Source of the DNA: Rhodocyclales bacterium
GTDB taxonomy: Bacteria > Pseudomonadota > Gammaproteobacteria > Burkholderiales > Rhodocyclaceae
Length of the DNA stretch: 64,000 nt
Direction of reading: 5' to 3'
Assembly (NCBI GenBank): GCA_016183655.1
Contig: JACPEH010000008.1
Location: 310,001-374,000 of the forward strand
The notes under the pieces are model-generated. The model searched no databases. It was not told where the DNA came from and saw only the letters and a program-made list of their open reading frames with translations. Below, in pieces: positions 4,801 through 14,516 of this stretch (within the stretch, counting starts at the first letter, position 1; each line of letters opens with the position of its first letter). The translations under genes were made by a program, and so were the position numbers.

Positions 4801-5151
4801 CACCGCGTTGCTGAACCAGGCCAGTTTCCCGTCCGCCAGGCGGAGCGGAAATTCGACGTGCGTCGGCGTCTGCCGCCCCGGCGCAGCCGCCGCGACGACG
4901 CGGAAGTGATCTATGCAGCGCGCATAGTCGTCGGCCGGCATGCGTTCGCGGAGCACCGCCAGGCCGCGCTGGCGCAGCTCGGCCAGCGGCGCGCCGAGCA
5001 GTTGCTCGGCGTTGGCGCTGACGTAGTCGTAGGCGTCGGTGAGCAGGTTGGCGCGATAGACGATGTGCTCGGCGCAGCCGAGGATTTCGCGCAGCATGTC
5101 GCCGCCGTCGGCCGACGGCGGGACCTCCTGTGCGCGACGAGCTTCGTTCAT
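1882..5151 (-). CDS. Multi-PAS sensor protein with GGDEF and EAL domains (c-di-GMP turnover)
   Basis: The product is 1089 residues and, with no clear membrane segment, is likely cytosolic. About five PAS/PAC modules fill residues 20-650. They are followed by a GGDEF domain with intact GGDEF at 738-742 and an EAL domain with intact EAL at about 865 and [10 protein letters not shown] near the C terminus. The inhibitory site RxxD (RKID) lies exactly five residues before GGDEF, so the cyclase half can probably be product-inhibited. Both catalytic motifs look active, so the net direction cannot be predicted. The ATG at 5151 overlaps the copA stop as ATGA, which excludes the 1463-aa ORF in the track and suggests translational coupling to the copper ATPase. 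Confidence 0.93.
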
Positions 5152-7613
5152 GACGCCCTTTCTCCGTGCGTTCCCTGCGGCTGCCAGCGTTTCAGCAGCA
5201 GCGAATTGGAGACCACCGATACCGAACTCAGCGCCATCGCCGCCCCGGCGACGACCGGGTTGAGCAGGCCGAGCGCCGCCAGCGGAATGCCAAGGACATT
5301 GTAGATGAAGGCGAAGAACAGGTTCTGCCGGATTTTGCCGAGCGTCGCCCGCGACAGCAGGATGGCGTCGGCGACGCCCTTCAGGTCGCTGCCGATCAGC
5401 GTCAGGTCGGCGGCCTCGATCGCCGCGTCGGAGCCGGCGCCGATGGCGAAGCCGACGTCGGCGGCGGCCAGCGCCGGCGCGTCGTTGATGCCGTCGCCGA
5501 CCATCGCCACGCAGCGGCCGGCGCCCTTCAGCGCGTTGACCTCGGCGGCCTTGTCGCCGGGCAGGATGCCGGCGCGGAAGTCGTCGATGCCGGCGGCGCG
5601 CGCCACCGCCGCGGCGGTGACCGCGTTGTCGCCGGTGAGCATGACGACCTGCAGGCCCATCGCCCGCAGCCGCGCCACCGCCGCCACCGACCCCGGCCGC
5701 AGCGGGTCGGCGATGGCCAGCAAGGCCAGCAGGCGGCCGCCCTCGGCCAGCGCGACGACGGTCTTGCCCTCGCCCTGCAGGCGCTGCAGCTCGTCGCGCC
5801 GCGTCACCGCGTCGGCGGCCCACGCCGCCGCGCCGAGACGCAGGCTGCGGCCGTCGACGACGCCTTCCACCCCCTTGCCGGGAATCGCCTGGAAACCGCT
5901 TACCGCGGGCAGGGTGATGCCGGCCGCGGCGGCCCGTTCGAGCACCGCACGCGCCAGCGGATGTTCGGAGCCCTGCTCCAGCGCCGCGGCCAGGCGCAGC
6001 GCGGTCGCCTCGTCGATGCCGTCGACGATCAGGTCGGTGACCTCCGGTTCGCCGCGCGTCAGCGTGCCGGTCTTGTCGACGGCGAGCACGCCGATCCGTT
6101 CGGCGCGTTCGAGGGCCTCGGCATTCTTCACCAGGATGCCGGCGGCGGCGCCGCGGCCGGTGCCGACCATGATCGCCGTCGGCGTCGCCAGCCCGAGCGC
6201 GCAGGGACAGGCGATGACGAGCACGGCGACGGCGTCGATCAGCGCCTCGGCGAGATCGCCGGCGAACAGCCACCAGCCGGCGAAGGTCAGGAGCGCGACG
6301 AAGCAGACGACGGGAACGAAGATCGCCGAGATGCGGTCGGCGAGCCGCTGCACCGGCGCCTTCGAACCCTGTGCCTCGGCCACCAGCCGGATGATGCCGG
6401 CCAGCAGCGTGTGCTCGCCGACGCCGGTGGCGCGGCAGCGCAGCTGGCCGAGCGCGTTCTGCGTCGCGGCGAAGACGCGGCTGCCGGCGGCCTTCGCCAC
6501 CGGCATGCTCTCGCCGGTAAGCATCGCCTCGTTGACGCTGGAAGCGCCGTCGAGGACCAGGCCGTCGACCGGCACGCTCTCGCCGGGGCGGACGATGAAG
6601 ACGTCGCCGGGCAGCAGCGAATCGGCCGCCACCTCGACCAGCTGGCCGTCGCGCTCGATGCGCGCGGTGCGCGGCTGCAGCCGGATCAGCGCCTCGATCG
6701 CCGCCGTGGTGCCGGCCTTGGCGCGCGCTTCGAGCAGCTTGCCCATCAGCACCAGCGTGATCACCGCCGCCGAGGCCTCGAAATAGACGTGGCGATGCTC
6801 GAAGCCGAGGACCGTGACCACCGCCGAAAAGGCCCAGGCCATGCTGGTGCCGAGCGCGACCAGCACGTCCATGTTGGCGCCGCTCCAGCCGCCGCCGCGC
6901 AGCGCCTTCCAGCCGCCCTCATAGAAACGCCAGCCGATCCAGAACTGCACCGGCGTCGCCAGCGCGAGCTGCAGCCAGCGCGGGATCGGGTCGGCCGCAT
7001 GGCCGCCGGCATCGCTGCCGAACATCCACAGCATCTGCAGCAGCAGCGGCAAGGTCAGTGCCGCCGCAACGTAGAAGCGGCGAAGCTCGGCGCGATAGGC
7101 GGCGATGCGGCGCGCCTTCTCCTCGGCACGCGAACGGTCGTCGGCGACGCGTGCCGAGAAGCCGGCTTTTTCCACGGCAGCGATCAGCTCGGCCGGCGCC
7201 GCCCGGCCGGGAACGTAGCGGATGCGCGCGCGCTCGGCGGCGAGGTTGACGCTGGCCTCGACGCCGTCGATCCGGCGCAGCACCTTCTCGATGCGCGCGG
7301 CGCAGGCGGCGCAGGTCATGCCGCCGATCGCCAGTTCGACGGTCTGCGGCGGCACGGAAAAGCCGGCGCGTTCGATCGCCGCGACCACCTGCGCCGGCGC
7401 GGTTGCATCGCCGGCGACGCGGACGCGCGCCCGTTCGGCCGCCAGATTGACGTCGGCCTCGACACCGGGCAGGCGCTTGAGCACCTTCTCGATGCGCGCC
7501 GCGCAGGCGGCACAGGTCATGCCGCCGATCGGCAGGTCGAGCTGGCGGGACAGCCCCGGGTTGGTCGGATCGTTCATGGATTGGGTGATGGGCTCGTGGA
7601 TCGACTCGCTCAT
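5148..7613 (-). CDS. copA: Copper-exporting P1B-type ATPase
   Basis: This inner-membrane pump expels Cu(I) at the cost of ATP. The product is 821 residues. Two N-terminal HMA domains carry GMTCAAC (Cys34/37 and Cys101/104). The family hallmarks follow in order: TGES in the actuator domain, the CPC metal site in the membrane (469-471), DKTGT with phosphorylated Asp513, SEHPLA in the nucleotide domain and GDGIND. Eight membrane helices are expected. The ATG at 7613 overlaps the stop of the upstream TauE/SafE-like gene as ATGA and was chosen for that reason; an internal ATG at 7577 is possible. A CcoI role in cytochrome cbb3 assembly is an alternative, but two HMA domains favour CopA. Confidence 0.93.
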
Positions 7614-8287
7614 GCGCCGCCGGCTCCGGCAGCGAGACGCCAGGCGCCAAGCAACCCCCACAGCCCGAAGCCGGCGACCACCGCGCCGGCGACGCCGCGC
7701 AGCCATGCCTGCCGGACGAAGCGGCGCAGGCGGGCGAGCAGCAGGCCGGCGAGCAGCAGGTTGGGTAGCGTCCCGGCGCCGAAGGCGAGCATCAGCAAGG
7801 CGCCCTGCACCGGCGAGCCGGCGGTCAGTGCGGTGGCCAGCGCGCTATAGACCAGGCCGCAGGGCAGCCAGCCCCAGAGCAGGCCGAGCGGAAAGGCGCG
7901 GGCCGCGGTGGTGGCCGGCAGGAAGCGGCGGGTCAGCGGCTGGATGCGCCGCCACAGGCGCTGGCCGAGGCGCTCGGTGAAGGCCAGCGCGCGCGTGACG
8001 CCGACCAGATAGAGACCGAGCGCGATCAACATCAGGCTGGCGACGACCTGCAGCGCGAGACGCAGCGGCAGCTGGCCGGAGAGCGCCAGCGCGCCGCCGA
8101 CAGCGCCGACCAGTGCGCCGGCCAGCCCGTAGGAAACGATCCGCCCGAGATTGTAGGCGAGGTGCAGCGACAGCCGCGGCGGACCGCCCATCGACAGCGC
8201 ACCGACGATGCCGCCGCACATGCCGACGCAGTGCGTGCCGCCGAGCAGACCGACGAGGAACAGCGCGAAATAACCGGAATCGGGCAT
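7610..8287 (-). CDS. TauE/SafE-like membrane protein of the copper/cytochrome maturation type
   Basis: The product has 225 residues and about six hydrophobic helices. The N-terminal motif [14 protein letters not shown] and the central [15 protein letters not shown] are typical of the COG2836 family. These proteins sit beside copper ATPases and cbb3 oxidase assembly genes and are thought to act in metal handling or cytochrome maturation. The conserved Cys/His of THCVGMC could bind copper. The ATG at 8287 is preferred; the track start is a TTG one codon earlier. It is the first gene of the apparent operon TauE-copA-GGDEF/EAL. The exact substrate is unknown. Confidence 0.82.
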
Positions 8288-9972: not shown

Positions 9973-10014
9973 ATTATCGGTTGCCCCGTAAACACGCACG
10001 TTGACTTGGATCAA
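9973..10014 (-). promoter_or_regulatory. FNR box and class II promoter of hemN; also upstream of fnr
   Basis: The sequence ttgacttggatcaa (10001-10014) fits the FNR consensus TTGAT-N4-ATCAA with one change. Reading toward hemN, exactly 22 bases separate it from gataat (9973-9978), a -10 hexamer with one mismatch. This centres the box at -41.5, the classic position for activation, with a transcription start near 9966 and a leader of about 20 nt. For the divergent fnr the same geometry would put the start at the ATG, so there the box more likely mediates autorepression. Confidence 0.8.
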
Positions 10015-10047
10015 AGAGGCTTCAGACCTCTCAAAACCGGAGCGAGC

Positions 10048-10797
10048 ATGCCCAACAGAAAAGCCGCAACCCCCATTTCGCTGGTCGAAGTCAAGACCGC
10101 GTGTTCCAACTGCAACCTGCACGAACTCTGCCTGCCGATGGGACTCTCCCATGACGAGGTGGAGAAGCTCGACGAGCTGGTTGCCAACCGTCGACGACTG
10201 AAGCGCGGCGAGCACCTGTACCGCGCCGGCCAGCCGTTCGACGCCATTTTCGCGGTGCGCAGCGGTTTCTTCAAGACCGACGTGCTGCTCGAAGACGGCC
10301 GCGAGCAGGTCACCGGCTTCCAGATGACCGGCGAGCTGCTCGGCCTGGACGGGATCAGCACCGAGATCCACTCGTGCAACGCCGTCGCGCTGGAAGACAG
10401 CGAGGTGTGCACGATCCCCTTCTCGCACCTGGAGGGCCTCTCGCGCGAGATCCAGACGCTGCAACACCACTTCCACAAGGTGATGAGCCGCGAGATCGTC
10501 CGCGACCACGGCGTGATGATGCTGCTCGGCACGATGCGCGCCGAGGAGCGACTGGCCGCCTTCCTGCTCAACCTGTCGCAGCGCTTCACCGCGCGCGGCT
10601 ACTCGCCGGCCGAGTTCTACCTGCGCATGACGCGCGAGGAGATCGGCAGCTACCTCGGGCTGAAGCTGGAAACCGTCAGCCGCGCCTTCTCGCGCTTCCA
10701 GGAGGAAGGCCTGATCGCCGTGCAGCAGAAGCACGTGCGCATCCTCAACATCCCCGGCCTGAAGCAGCTAATGAACCACCAGCAGGGCCGCGGCTGA
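10048..10797 (+). CDS. fnr: FNR-type anaerobic transcriptional regulator
   Basis: This Crp/Fnr family protein of 249 residues senses O2 through a [4Fe-4S] cluster. The N-terminal cysteines C-x2-C-x5-C (Cys19, 22, 28) and the central Cys110 match the four cluster ligands of FNR. The C-terminal helix-turn-helix contains ETVSR, the E-S-R recognition residues that contact TTGAT half-sites. The ATG at 10048 is chosen because it gives the standard short N terminus; the longer track ORF starts inside the promoter. It is divergent from hemN and convergent with sirB2. It is the probable regulator of the four FNR boxes found in this window. Confidence 0.95.
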   Translation: MPNRKAATPISLVEVKTACSNCNLHELCLPMGLSHDEVEKLDELVANRRRLKRGEHLYRAGQPFDAIFAVRSGFFKTDVLLEDGREQVTGFQMTGELLGLDGISTEIHSCNAVALEDSEVCTIPFSHLEGLSREIQTLQHHFHKVMSREIVRDHGVMMLLGTMRAEERLAAFLLNLSQRFTARGYSPAEFYLRMTREEIGSYLGLKLETVSRAFSRFQEEGLIAVQQKHVRILNIPGLKQLMNHQQGRG

Positions 10798-10813: not shown

Positions 10814-11209
10814 CTACCCGGCGACGACCGCGAGCAGGCCGCGCGGATCGCGCGTCAGCGCCACCGAGACGATGTAGCCGAACGCCGCCAGCGCGGCGAC
10901 GAACCACGCCGCGCGCTGCGCCTTGGTGCGCCCGCGCTTCAGCGCCATCATGCCGAAGACTATATAGGCGAGCAGGCCGAAGAATTTTGCGGTCAACCAC
11001 GGCAGCACGAAGGGATACTGCGCGCTGATCACCGCCATCGCCAGCGCGCTGCCGAGCAGCACCGTGTCGACGACATGCGGCAACACCTTCAGCAGGCGCT
11101 TCCCGAGCAGCGGCGAATCGTTGAGCATGAGCAGGCCGCGCAGGAAGAAGCCGGTGCCCGACAGCAGCACGGCGGTGACGTGGATGTGCTTGAGGATCAG
11201 ATAGCTCAT
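10814..11209 (-). CDS. SirB2 family membrane protein
   Basis: The product has 131 residues and four hydrophobic helices. The start MSYLILKHIHVTAVLLSGTGFFLRG has the conserved H-x-H residues of the SirB family, followed by a conserved HVVDT segment. The function of SirB2 proteins is not established; members often lie near heme or respiratory genes. It is the last gene of the hemerythrin-NnrS operon, four bases after the nnrS stop. The ATG at 11209 is preferred to the upstream alternative start in the track. Confidence 0.82.
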   Translation of the reverse strand: MSYLILKHIHVTAVLLSGTGFFLRGLLMLNDSPLLGKRLLKVLPHVVDTVLLGSALAMAVISAQYPFVLPWLTAKFFGLLAYIVFGMMALKRGRTKAQRAAWFVAALAAFGYIVSVALTRDPRGLLAVVAG

Positions 11210-11213
11210 TGAC

Positions 11214-12422
11214 CTACCCCGGCCGCCCATCCGGGCGCGGCTTCAGGAACATCGACAGGTGCACGCGGCCCCACATGCCGAATACCGCCAGCCAGCCGAG
11301 CGCGCTCAGCCAGACCGGGCTGAAGGCGCCGAGTTCCGTGAACCACTCGCCGCCGAGGCGCAGCAGCACCACCCCCTGGAACAGCCAGAACAGACGCCAA
11401 GCCCAGACGTCGGAGGAAATCAGCCGCCCGGAATGGCCGAGCGTCACCCGCGTCGCCATGCCGATCAGGATCGAGCCGAAATAACCAACGGTCAGCGCGT
11501 GCAGCGGCGCGCGGCCGCCCCAGCCGTTTCCGCTCAGCAGGAACAGGCTCTGCACGGCGAACAGCAGCAGCGCGATGCCGAGCCAGACGCTGGCCAGGTG
11601 GTGCATCGCCAGCAGGTGCGAGACGAAGGCCTTGCGCAGCTGCCAGCGCCACGACAGCCAGAGCACGGTGGCGCCGCCAAGCAGGTCGGGCGGCCACAGC
11701 CAGGCACGCAGCTCGGCCACCGCCAGCGCGGCATGCGCGGCGCAGCAGCCGAGGACGATCCAGTACGTGGCGCGGCCACGGTATTCGTCGTAACCGCGGA
11801 TGACGCTGCCGGAGAAGAACGGCAGCATGCGGTAGGTGACGGTGAAGAACACCGGCACCAGGAACAGCCACAGCCCGGCCTCGATCGCCGCCGCGACCAG
11901 TCCCGGGTGCGTGAGGGCGATGCCAGCGGCGAAGGCGAGCAGGCCGACGATGCCGCACGCCAGTGCGACAAGGACGACCCAGGCGTGCGTCTTGTGCTCG
12001 CTGATCGAGCTGCGCACGGCGGCAAAGAGCGCGTACCAGCCGAGCCCCCAGCCGGCGGCGACGACGACCATGCCGAGCGGAATCAGCGGCGCCGCGAAGA
12101 GGCCGGCGTAGAAGAGCAGCCAGCCGGCGACGAGCAGGAAAAAGGCCGGCACGTATTGCCGCTGTTCGAGCGGCCCCTGCGCCACCCACTTCGGCAGCGC
12201 CGTCATCAGGAAGCCGAAGATGAAGAAGGTGAACAGCCCGTACAGCATCAGCGCCGCGTGCAGCCAGGTCGCCGGCACCGGCCACGATAGCGGCGTGTAC
12301 AGGCCGGCGTAGCGGGCGCCGAGATCGAACGCCCAGAAGGCCATGCCGAGCAGTGCCTGCAGCGCGCCGGCGAAGAACATCACGCGGTGCGGGGCGGCGA
12401 AGAAGACCGGGCGCAGGTTCAT
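11214..12422 (-). CDS. nnrS: NnrS family heme/copper-containing membrane protein
   Basis: The product has 402 residues and about twelve membrane helices. The start FFAAPHRVMFFAGALQALLGM and the later HALTVGYFGSILIGMATRVTLGHSGR are the characteristic NnrS motifs, with histidines suited to heme and copper binding. NnrS helps cells cope with nitric oxide and nitrosative stress in the inner membrane. The ATG at 12422 overlaps the preceding gene's stop as ATGA, which excludes the 590-aa track ORF. The operon begins with an FNR-type promoter and a hemerythrin gene, which fits a role under low oxygen or NO. Confidence 0.93.
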   Translation of the reverse strand: MNLRPVFFAAPHRVMFFAGALQALLGMAFWAFDLGARYAGLYTPLSWPVPATWLHAALMLYGLFTFFIFGFLMTALPKWVAQGPLEQRQYVPAFFLLVAGWLLFYAGLFAAPLIPLGMVVVAAGWGLGWYALFAAVRSSISEHKTHAWVVLVALACGIVGLLAFAAGIALTHPGLVAAAIEAGLWLFLVPVFFTVTYRMLPFFSGSVIRGYDEYRGRATYWIVLGCCAAHAALAVAELRAWLWPPDLLGGATVLWLSWRWQLRKAFVSHLLAMHHLASVWLGIALLLFAVQSLFLLSGNGWGGRAPLHALTVGYFGSILIGMATRVTLGHSGRLISSDVWAWRLFWLFQGVVLLRLGGEWFTELGAFSPVWLSALGWLAVFGMWGRVHLSMFLKPRPDGRPG

Positions 12423-13747
12423 GCCCGCCTCCCGACGCCGGCTTCTGCCAGCCCGAGCTCCGCCAGCCGGGCGTCGACCAGCGCCGCATGCCGGCGATAG
12501 ACGCCGAGCGCGGACAACAGGTTGATCGCCAGCAGTACCGCCGACGCGACCATCGCCAGCCCCGCCGGGCGGGCCAGCCCGGCGGGCCACAGCACGCCGC
12601 CGGCGAGCAGCGCGCAGGCGGCGAAATGCACCCGCATCTGGCGCTGCATCGGCGCTTCCGCCAGCACCGCCTTCATGTTCGGGGCCACCACCTTGCCCCG
12701 TCCGCGATTCTGCAGATGCAGCCAGACCAGGAAGGGCACGACCTTGTAGAGCATGCCGATGATCACCGACATGTAGCCGCCGGCCAGCACGAGCACGCCG
12801 AACAGCAGCGGCCATTCGTCGCGCTCGCCGAGCGCCGGCACCAGCGCCACCAGTGCCCACAGCGCGCAGGCCGCCAACCCGCTCTGCATCGCCCCGCGCC
12901 ACAGGCGCTGTGTCGTATCCGGCCGGGCGCGCTTGCTGCGCGCCTGCAGCCACAAGGTCATCGCGCAGAAGACGGCGGCGATCCACACCAGCAGCGCCTG
13001 CAGCAGGCCGGCGAGTACGTCATGGCCGAACAGCACCGCCGGCGTCGCCAGCACTGCCACGGCGAGCAGCGACCCGCCGAAAAAGCGGCTGAACCAGTGC
13101 GGATAGAGCGGCGTCAGCTGGAACATCGGCACGACGACGTAGGCCACCGCCGAGAGCAGGCCGAGCCCCCAGCCGGCAAGCCCCCAGCCGGCGTGCGCGT
13201 GGATCGTCTCGACCATCGGCAGCGACCAGCTGCCGCCCATGCCGCCGGCCAGTGCGATGCCCAGGGCGAGGACTGCGGCCAGCGACAGCAGCGCGACCTT
13301 CAGCCCGGTGATCGTGGCGCTGGTCGGCGGCACCCCGCGCAGCGACAGCGCCGCCATCAGGATGAAGCAACCGACGCCGGCGCCGAGCAAGGCGGCGGCC
13401 GGCACGAAGCCGGAGAACCAGCCGAGGAAGCTGCCGGCGAGGCACAGCACCCCGGCCAGCAGCAGCGCATGGACGATACGCGCGACCCACAGCGGATGGC
13501 TCAGGTTGGCGCCGGCAACCACCGGCAGGATCTGGATCATCGCGCCGAGCATCACCTGCAGCACGAAGCCGAGGGCCACCAGGTGGGTCAGCGCCAGGGC
13601 GCCCGGCGTCCAGCGCGAGAGCAGCGCCTCCGGCCCCGCCACCAGCAGCAGGAGACCGGCGAGCAGCGCGAACAGCGGTGCCGTGAGGAAGAAGCGAAAA
13701 GGCGCCGCCATCGGCGGCGCCTGCTCGAACGACAGGATGGCCTGCAT
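12419..13747 (-). CDS. Polytopic membrane protein of unknown function next to nnrS
   Basis: The product has 442 residues and about twelve predicted membrane helices. It contains conserved-looking histidines (THLVALGF, HPLWVARIVHALLL, VETIHAHAGWGL) and ends with a short basic tail. The ETIHAHAGWGLAGWGL segment followed by VVPMFQLTPLYP is reminiscent of heme-binding helices in oxidase- or NnrS-like proteins, but I cannot name a family. It lies between a DUF2249 gene (13-bp gap) and nnrS (ATGA overlap), so it is almost certainly made together with NnrS. A heme or NO-related membrane role is inference from context only. Confidence 0.78.
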   Translation of the reverse strand: MQAILSFEQAPPMAAPFRFFLTAPLFALLAGLLLLVAGPEALLSRWTPGALALTHLVALGFVLQVMLGAMIQILPVVAGANLSHPLWVARIVHALLLAGVLCLAGSFLGWFSGFVPAAALLGAGVGCFILMAALSLRGVPPTSATITGLKVALLSLAAVLALGIALAGGMGGSWSLPMVETIHAHAGWGLAGWGLGLLSAVAYVVVPMFQLTPLYPHWFSRFFGGSLLAVAVLATPAVLFGHDVLAGLLQALLVWIAAVFCAMTLWLQARSKRARPDTTQRLWRGAMQSGLAACALWALVALVPALGERDEWPLLFGVLVLAGGYMSVIIGMLYKVVPFLVWLHLQNRGRGKVVAPNMKAVLAEAPMQRQMRVHFAACALLAGGVLWPAGLARPAGLAMVASAVLLAINLLSALGVYRRHAALVDARLAELGLAEAGVGRRA

Positions 13748-13760
13748 GGGCGTTAACCCG

Positions 13761-13997
13761 TCACGCGTCGGCGTGCCAGATCAGGATCTCGACGGTCCCG
13801 TCAACCAGCTGCTCGGCCTCGTGCGCAAAGCCGTTGTTGGCCAGCGCCTTGTACAGCGGATACGGCTCGCGATAGAGCAGCAGCAGCAGCTTCTCGCCCT
13901 TGGGCAGGCGGTCGAGCGCATCCATCGTCAGCACGAACGGTTCCGGCGGCTCCAGTCCGCGCGCGTCGATCACCCGGTCGCTTTTCGGGTGCTTCAT
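13761..13997 (-). CDS. DUF2249 domain protein
   Basis: This small cytosolic protein of 78 residues has the signature VIDARGLEPPEPFVLTMDALDRLPKGEKLLLLLYREPYPLY, typical of DUF2249/TusA-like folds. These proteins commonly accompany hemerythrin and NnrS genes in denitrifying and NO-stress clusters; their biochemical role is unclear. The ATG at 13997 overlaps the stop of the hemerythrin gene as ATGA, so the longer track ORF is rejected. It lacks the CPxP motif of true TusA sulfur carriers. Confidence 0.85.
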   Translation of the reverse strand: MKHPKSDRVIDARGLEPPEPFVLTMDALDRLPKGEKLLLLLYREPYPLYKALANNGFAHEAEQLVDGTVEILIWHADA

Positions 13998-14446
13998 GCG
14001 CCGGCTCCGGGCATCTCGGCGCGCAGCTGCGGCACCAGGGTTTCCGCTTCGTAGGCCAGATGCTGGTCGCACATCGGATAGAGGATGTTCTCCTCCTTCA
14101 TGTTGTGCTGCTGCATCATGATCAGCAACGTCTCGGCGTTGCCGGCATAGTCGTCGGCATTCTTCGCCGCCAGCGCGTCGGCTGCGGCCTGCATCAGTTC
14201 GCGCATCTGCACGTGCTCGCTGCGCATCACCTGCGTCGGCCCCATGCTCATGCCGGTCTTGCGCTCGAAGGCGGGAAACAGCAGCGACTCCTCGGCCGCG
14301 AAATGCTGCAGGACGCTTTCGTGGAAACGGGTAAAGCAGGCGCCGGCGGCCGTCCAGTCGCCGTCGGCGACGGCCTGCTCGACCTCGGCGAAGACGTCAT
14401 CGCAGCGGCGATGGTCGTCGGTCATGAAATCTCTGATGGTGGTCAT
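13994..14446 (-). CDS. Hemerythrin-like (HHE) cation-binding protein
   Basis: The product has 150 residues forming a four-helix bundle with di-iron ligands. These are MTDDHRRCDD at the N terminus, a HESVLQHFAAEESLLFPAFE helix, HVQMRE, and MMQQHNMKEENILYPMCDQH. Bacterial hemerythrins bind O2 or NO and protect iron proteins. An ATG 30 bases further upstream (14476) has a Shine-Dalgarno-like aggggaa. However, it falls inside the -10 of the FNR promoter and before the predicted transcript start, so I chose 14446 (MTTIRDFM). It is the first gene of the five-gene operon ending with sirB2. Confidence 0.9.
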   Translation of the reverse strand: MTTIRDFMTDDHRRCDDVFAEVEQAVADGDWTAAGACFTRFHESVLQHFAAEESLLFPAFERKTGMSMGPTQVMRSEHVQMRELMQAAADALAAKNADDYAGNAETLLIMMQQHNMKEENILYPMCDQHLAYEAETLVPQLRAEMPGAGA

Positions 14447-14474
14447 CTCGGGGAGCCCTGTTGTTGGTCGGGCC

Positions 14475-14516
14475 ATTGTCAGATTCCCCTGCTCCGGGGG
14501 CATTGACTGAGATCAA
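14475..14516 (-). promoter_or_regulatory. FNR box and class II promoter of the hemerythrin-NnrS operon
   Basis: On the minus strand ttgatctcagtcaa (14503-14516) matches TTGAT-N4-RTCAA. Exactly 22 bases downstream is gacaat (14475-14480), a plausible -10, giving a box centre at -41.5 and a start near 14468. The leader to the ATG at 14446 is then about 22 nt. This geometry decides the start codon of the hemerythrin gene. Confidence 0.78.

Follow-up and report, generated by a model that had tools for sequence, protein, structure and literature searches.

A conserved hemerythrin-DUF2249 gene cluster of denitrifiers encodes a predicted heme-copper oxidase-fold membrane protein and may protect iron centres from nitric oxide

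The window that we analysed is a 64,000-nucleotide stretch from a Rhodocyclales bacterium (our genome G000, contig C12, 3.9 Mb). It carries a five-gene operon for a hemerythrin, a DUF2249 protein, a 442-aa protein with 12 predicted transmembrane (TM) helices that we call the 12TM protein, an NnrS-family protein and a SirB2-family protein. We found that the first three genes form a conserved core, that NnrS and SirB2 are lineage-specific additions, and that the 12TM protein is predicted to have the fold of the catalytic subunits of heme-copper oxidases (HCOs). Our tentative reading, held at a little under even confidence, is that FNR/Dnr regulators switch on a module by which a denitrifier tolerates its own nitric oxide (NO) through the protection or repair of iron centres, with the 12TM protein as the membrane heme component. 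Below we describe the operon, its promoter, the predicted fold and ligand pattern, the conserved partners, a natural fusion and the denitrification context. An initial annotation of this DNA had proposed the operon, an FNR promoter, the 12-helix topology and a link to NO and denitrification, all of which held up; the specific partnership that it proposed between the 12TM protein and NnrS did not.

Operon and promoter

The five-gene operon is real. All of its genes are on the minus strand, in the order first described: a single-domain hemerythrin of the HHE type (13994..14446; Pfam PF01814, 1.9e-23), a DUF2249 protein of the TusA-like fold family (13761..13997; PF10006, 4.4e-19), the 12TM protein (12419..13747; HCO-superfamily fold by AlphaFold (AF2), Foldseek and hhalign), a divergent branch of the NnrS family (11214..12422; PF05940, 1.9e-62) and a SirB2-family protein with four TM helices (10814..11209; PF04247, 6e-43). 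ATGA overlaps join the hemerythrin and DUF2249 genes (13994-13997) and the 12TM and nnrS genes (12419-12422), as had been claimed. On its 5' side the operon begins about 100 nt after phaC, and on its 3' side it abuts a convergent gene for an Fnr regulator (10000..10797, plus strand; NCBIfam NF008365, above cut-off).

The promoter has the geometry of a class-II FNR promoter. The FNR/Dnr box TTGATCTCAGTCAA (14503..14516, minus strand) has one mismatch to TTGAT-N4-ATCAA and is at about -41.5 from the inferred transcription start. A -10-like hexamer, GACAAT (14475..14480, minus strand), has its last base 34.5 nt from the center of the box, and the ATG at 14446 lies downstream. Because of this class-II spacing, we favor that ATG as the start of the hemerythrin.

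The box is also conserved. We took 101 relatives that have the hemerythrin gene upstream of the 12TM gene on the same strand, and searched about 220 nt upstream of the hemerythrin gene. The best match to TTGAT-N4-ATCAA had two or fewer mismatches in 93 of the 101 loci, where shuffled sequences would be expected to give 6.3, and a control on coding regions gave 2/101 loci at two mismatches and none with fewer. There are loci where the hemerythrin is transcribed divergently from the 12TM gene (L271-L276 and L287-L290), and most of those examined (L271-L275, L287, L288) have, close to where the 12TM gene starts, a near-perfect or perfect FNR box. For the distant DUF2249-12TM-DUF59 clusters (described below) we searched the upstream DNA for an NnrR-type box (TTGCG-N4-CGCAA), and only L284 came close.

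Conserved partners

Partner counts come from 135 loci in many genomes, and each denominator is the number of loci with enough sequence. Immediately upstream of the 12TM gene we found DUF2249 in 104/132 loci, hemerythrin in 99/130 and both in 96/130. SirB2 is a variable member, present within 4.5 kb in 49/127 loci. In one genome DUF2249 and the 12TM protein are naturally fused in frame, with about 30 linker residues between them, into a 535-aa protein (P0002; L122:1489-3093, minus strand, and the same gene in L249).

Distant lineages replace one of the partners. The gene order there is DUF2249-12TM-DUF2249(x2)-DUF59/SufT and the hemerythrin is missing (L279-L286, L268, L102). An Aliarcobacter plasmid (L299:3932-5805) has DUF2249, 12TM and a metal-sulfur cluster assembly factor, also with the hemerythrin missing and with transposases on the flanks. 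DUF2249 and 12TM are kept both in the hemerythrin loci and in the DUF59 loci, and thus they are the constant pair, which an iron-centre protein joins: a RIC-like hemerythrin or a DUF59 assembly factor.

The window hemerythrin has the full diiron ligand set of the RIC/YtfE type (H12, H48, E52, H78, H114 and E118, in the pattern H/HxxxE/H/HxxxE; conservation judged over 146 sequences), and its best PDB sequence match is YtfE. It is not a RIC equivalog by NCBIfam, where its best score was 41.8 bits against a cut-off of 254, and it does not have the N-terminal domain. The DUF2249 protein of the window aligns with TusA, with EPPEP in place of the CPxP motif that holds the catalytic Cys.

These ligands bear on another possible role, in which hemerythrin and DUF2249 handle O2 and the 12TM protein supplies electrons to reduce trace O2 at the oxic-anoxic transition, for microaerobic protection and not against NO. 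FNR-type control, the microaerobic genes nearby and the ability of hemerythrins to bind O2 would all fit. However, the ligands and the best match are RIC/YtfE-like and not those of a bacteriohemerythrin, and the association is with NO-producing pathways, so we consider this role quite improbable.

We made two further observations on the hemerythrin. C15, which sits beside the first iron-ligand His (HRRCD), is 96% conserved. In L033, L034, L047, L061 and L104 the hemerythrin is preceded by a gene for an ODP-type metallo-beta-lactamase (flavodiiron-like), often with a small MCP-like gene.

The 12TM protein

Searching Pfam and NCBIfam with the 12TM protein gave no family at E<=1, and a PDB sequence search with its profile gave nothing at E<=10. 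Homologues are present in 106/151 sampled genomes of the family Rhodocyclaceae, in 43/323 genomes of the class sample (~13%) and in 42/249 of the phylum sample. One scan of genome contigs returned close relatives only. Proteins of about 470 aa (L231-L234) have weak PF00115 scores, and one of them is near another HCO gene (G008:C26); they are possible divergent members of the oxidase family.

For structure prediction we gave AF2 an alignment of 52 divergent relatives. The model has 12 TM helices, in agreement with the topology first proposed, with a pLDDT of 96.1 and a pTM of 0.94. Searched against the PDB with Foldseek, it matched cbb3 CcoN best (E 3.5e-7, TM-score 0.71), followed by cNOR and then other HCOs at a probability near 1. 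Among the 50 matches listed, the first that is not an HCO is at rank 49, with a probability of 0.09. The predicted fold is therefore that of HCO catalytic subunits, and is closest to CcoN. When we aligned the 12TM profile to a duplicated copy of itself with hhalign, we recovered a +132-residue register (probability 95, E 2e-8), which we take to be the three-fold repeat of the HCO fold, with three homologous four-helix units.

By profile comparison the 12TM protein is also a remote homologue of NnrS over the full length. The two profiles align collinearly over 11-387 with a probability of 84-90 and E of 1e-6 to 8e-6, and the reversed-profile control gave no significance. One of the 52 relatives matches PF05940 at 5e-6; the window protein itself has no match at the PF05940 cut-off and is not an NnrS by that measure. 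It also does not have the invariant NnrS residues R198, H308 and H330, judging from the hhalign alignment and the conservation lists. Comparisons with the NorB, CcoN, CtaD and qNOR profiles were not significant and were near the level of the reversed control, and there was no Pfam match to PF00115. We tried a circular permutation relative to NnrS and ruled it out, as the collinear register scores best. We also considered SirB2 as a single-unit HCO homologue, and the profile comparison gave no signal.

We compared residues across homologues from beta- and gammaproteobacteria, distant Pseudomonadota (alphaproteobacterial-type) and the Campylobacterota plasmid copy. Fixed in all of these are H55, G60, G68, Q72, P75, V76, H185, M208, F209, R273, G323, K335 and F339. 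Two of them are His, H55 in TM2 and H185 in TM6. H344 is conserved in betaproteobacterial sequences and is E elsewhere, and position 318 in TM10 is V, W, I, F or Y. The six His of HCOs and NO reductases are thus reduced to those in TM2 and TM6: the CuB ligands, the His pair of TM7 and the HxH of TM10 are all absent. Because the CuB and TM10 ligands are absent, the 12TM protein is neither an oxidase nor an NO reductase. Without the TM7 pair, the TM10 HxH and a significant sequence score, it cannot carry the HCO catalytic center, and we read it as a catalytically stripped member of the HCO superfamily. The two His that remain suggest a single heme.

Relation to NnrS

NnrS is also predicted by AF2 to have an HCO fold, with Foldseek matches to CcoN. 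The initial annotation took the ATGA overlap as a sign that the 12TM protein and NnrS work as partners. We found NnrS directly downstream of the 12TM gene in 7/129 loci, far below the counts for hemerythrin and DUF2249, and within 2.5 kb in 20/127. In related genomes the 12TM gene is mostly not next to nnrS, and direct adjacency is mainly found in the genus of the window and its close relatives, so the pairwise claim fails. Co-occurrence is a different matter, as 40 of the 42 12TM-bearing genomes of the class sample also have NnrS somewhere (odds ratio (OR) 26, p 3e-11, a value that ignores shared ancestry). Some genomes do not have a PF05940 match, such as G429 and G430.

A heterodimer of NnrS and the 12TM protein, acting as one functional unit, would make sense of the overlap, the homologous folds and this co-occurrence. 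We nonetheless regard it as very unlikely given how rare and how lineage-bound the adjacency is, and the NnrS of the window is itself a divergent branch. It has 20-25% identity with a second copy in its own genome and with most of the family's NnrS proteins. That second copy is at C19:153238-154362 and is ~20% identical to the window copy.

Denitrification context

The neighbors of the cluster support the proposed link to NO and denitrification. We found NorB, norCB, NorQ, NorE, a NorD-like VWA protein, NirS, NirD/L-type proteins and NosZ near the loci, along with Dnr-type Crp regulators, NarL- or NarXL-type regulators, HemN and Usp. Cupriavidus necator H16 pHG1 (H16_RS32790/32785) carries, in order, NnrS, a two-component system, hemerythrin, 12TM (annotated as a hypothetical protein) and a Crp/Fnr (Dnr) regulator, with nar/nnrS on one side and nos on the other. 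The 12TM protein also co-occurs with cNorB in the class sample (23/42, OR 5.6, p 1e-6, again ignoring shared ancestry). The window genome encodes several cytochrome-cd1-domain proteins and HCOs of qNOR length (qNOR-like).

Around Rhodocyclaceae loci the neighbors are frequently HemN, CcoS/DsbD2-type proteins, a Cu P-type ATPase and CcoG, and the gene for the Fnr regulator is part of the neighborhood in about 32/133 loci. The window has a heavy-metal P-type ATPase with two HMA domains (5151-7706, minus strand); as part of the fnr-hemN region it is probably the copper ATPase that goes with cbb3. Such neighbors would fit a module that is not for NO protection but serves cbb3 oxidase or NO reductase in an accessory or assembly role, for example in heme or metal insertion or in stability. 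An HCO-like fold could also pair with HCO subunits. However, we think this unlikely, as these neighbors belong to the syntenic Fnr-HemN-cco region of Rhodocyclaceae. Outside of that region the cluster adjoins nor, nir, nos or nar, and hemerythrin and DUF2249 stay constant.

Regulators are common neighbors too: 41/133 loci have an adjacent Dnr/Crp-type regulator, and 16 have a NarL-type one. A heme protein with hemerythrin and DUF2249 might then sense NO, O2 or nitrate and signal to these regulators. The DUF2249 proteins DrpA and DrpB of T. thermophilus have been proposed to be nitrate sensors (PMC6282519, as described in PMC11218638). A sensor seems improbable to us, though, since a signalling output domain is absent, the regulators are variable and often missing, and Dnr is as a rule not co-transcribed but encoded on the opposite strand.

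Haloferax DUF2249 proteins are induced under denitrification (PMC11218638), and Thermus DUF2249 proteins have been linked to nitrate respiration (PMC6282519).

Proposed function

An HCO fold with hemerythrin and DUF2249 partners, under an FNR-type switch across denitrifiers, probably therefore means NO protection of iron proteins. In the mechanism that we propose, the core of hemerythrin, DUF2249 and 12TM would be under FNR/Dnr control. H55 (TM2) and H185 (TM6) would most likely bind one b-type heme in the 12TM protein, which may handle NO or electrons at the membrane and has a conserved patch predicted to face the cytoplasm (Q72, P75, V76, M208, F209, R273, K335 and F339). DUF2249 would dock at the cytoplasmic N-terminal side of the 12TM protein and exchange NO or electrons, which would reach the diiron RIC-like hemerythrin or, in distant lineages, the DUF59/SufT Fe-S assembly factor. 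NnrS of V. cholerae reportedly does not remove NO but guards the pool of iron against dinitrosyl iron complexes (PMC9246220), and by analogy this is a plausible model for the 12TM protein as its HCO-fold relative.

A more specific version strikes us as doubtful. Here the single heme would sit at the interface of units 1 and 2 (H55/H185), a site that oxidases, NO reductases and NnrS do not use, and the 12TM protein would be a membrane conduit that passes electrons or NO to a soluble partner for Fe-S repair, DUF2249-diiron (or DUF59). The whole would be a membrane-anchored Fe-S/NO repair complex in denitrifiers of at least two phyla.

Several points weigh against NO protection. In the class sample, 19 of the 42 genomes with a 12TM protein have no cNorB match at 1e-40, a threshold at which qNOR can be missed. 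FNR control would be just as expected for a low-oxygen role without any tie to NO, and the SirB2, HemN, Fnr and cco-type neighbors could point to cytochrome biogenesis instead. The HCO link of the 12TM protein comes from the predicted fold and from NnrS, and its heme, its redox activity and any NO phenotype are predicted. We infer heme binding, membrane orientation, the transfer of electrons or NO, and the protection of iron centres.

What we have is an HCO-superfamily protein outside of Pfam and NCBIfam that is tied to hemerythrin, DUF2249 and FNR/Dnr control. The partners worth testing are hemerythrin and DUF2249 rather than NnrS, and there are two His worth mutating. The protein may help explain how Fe-S enzymes survive in denitrifiers that produce NO, and what NnrS-like proteins do.

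Comparison with known systems

NnrS (PF05940) shares with the 12TM protein the 12 TM helices, the predicted HCO fold, remote collinear homology and an invariant His in TM2, as well as NO-responsive control of the FNR/Dnr/NsrR type and a distribution among denitrifiers. Unlike NnrS, the 12TM protein is below the Pfam threshold, does not have hallmarks such as W30 in addition to the three residues named above, and has its second invariant His in TM6 and not in TM10. CcoN and NorB (PF00115) are the best structural matches, and the spacing H-x4-G-[FW] is that of the heme ligand in CcoN TM10, but their TM7 and TM10 His and a significant sequence score are what the 12TM protein is missing.

The partners compare in a similar way. 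The hemerythrin has the same diiron ligands as RIC/YtfE/DnrN, but it is single-domain, does not reach the NCBIfam cut-offs and has the conserved C15. The DUF2249 protein shares its domain with TusA and with DrpA, which is tied to Thermus nitrate respiration, but not the sulfur-carrier Cys.

Pei, Li, Kinch and Grishin reportedly described HCO-homology (HCOH) families in 2014 that include NnrS and other families with three units and two histidines. These families would resemble ours in the three four-helix units, the two conserved His, the denitrification context and the association with DUF2249. The 12TM family is very probably one of them or a close neighbor. PMC11218638 credits Pei et al. 2014 with novel HCO-homologous families and with the association of DUF2249 with the HCO superfamily. 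To this our computation adds the partner set, the conservation of the FNR box, the swap of hemerythrin for DUF59 and the DUF2249-12TM fusion.

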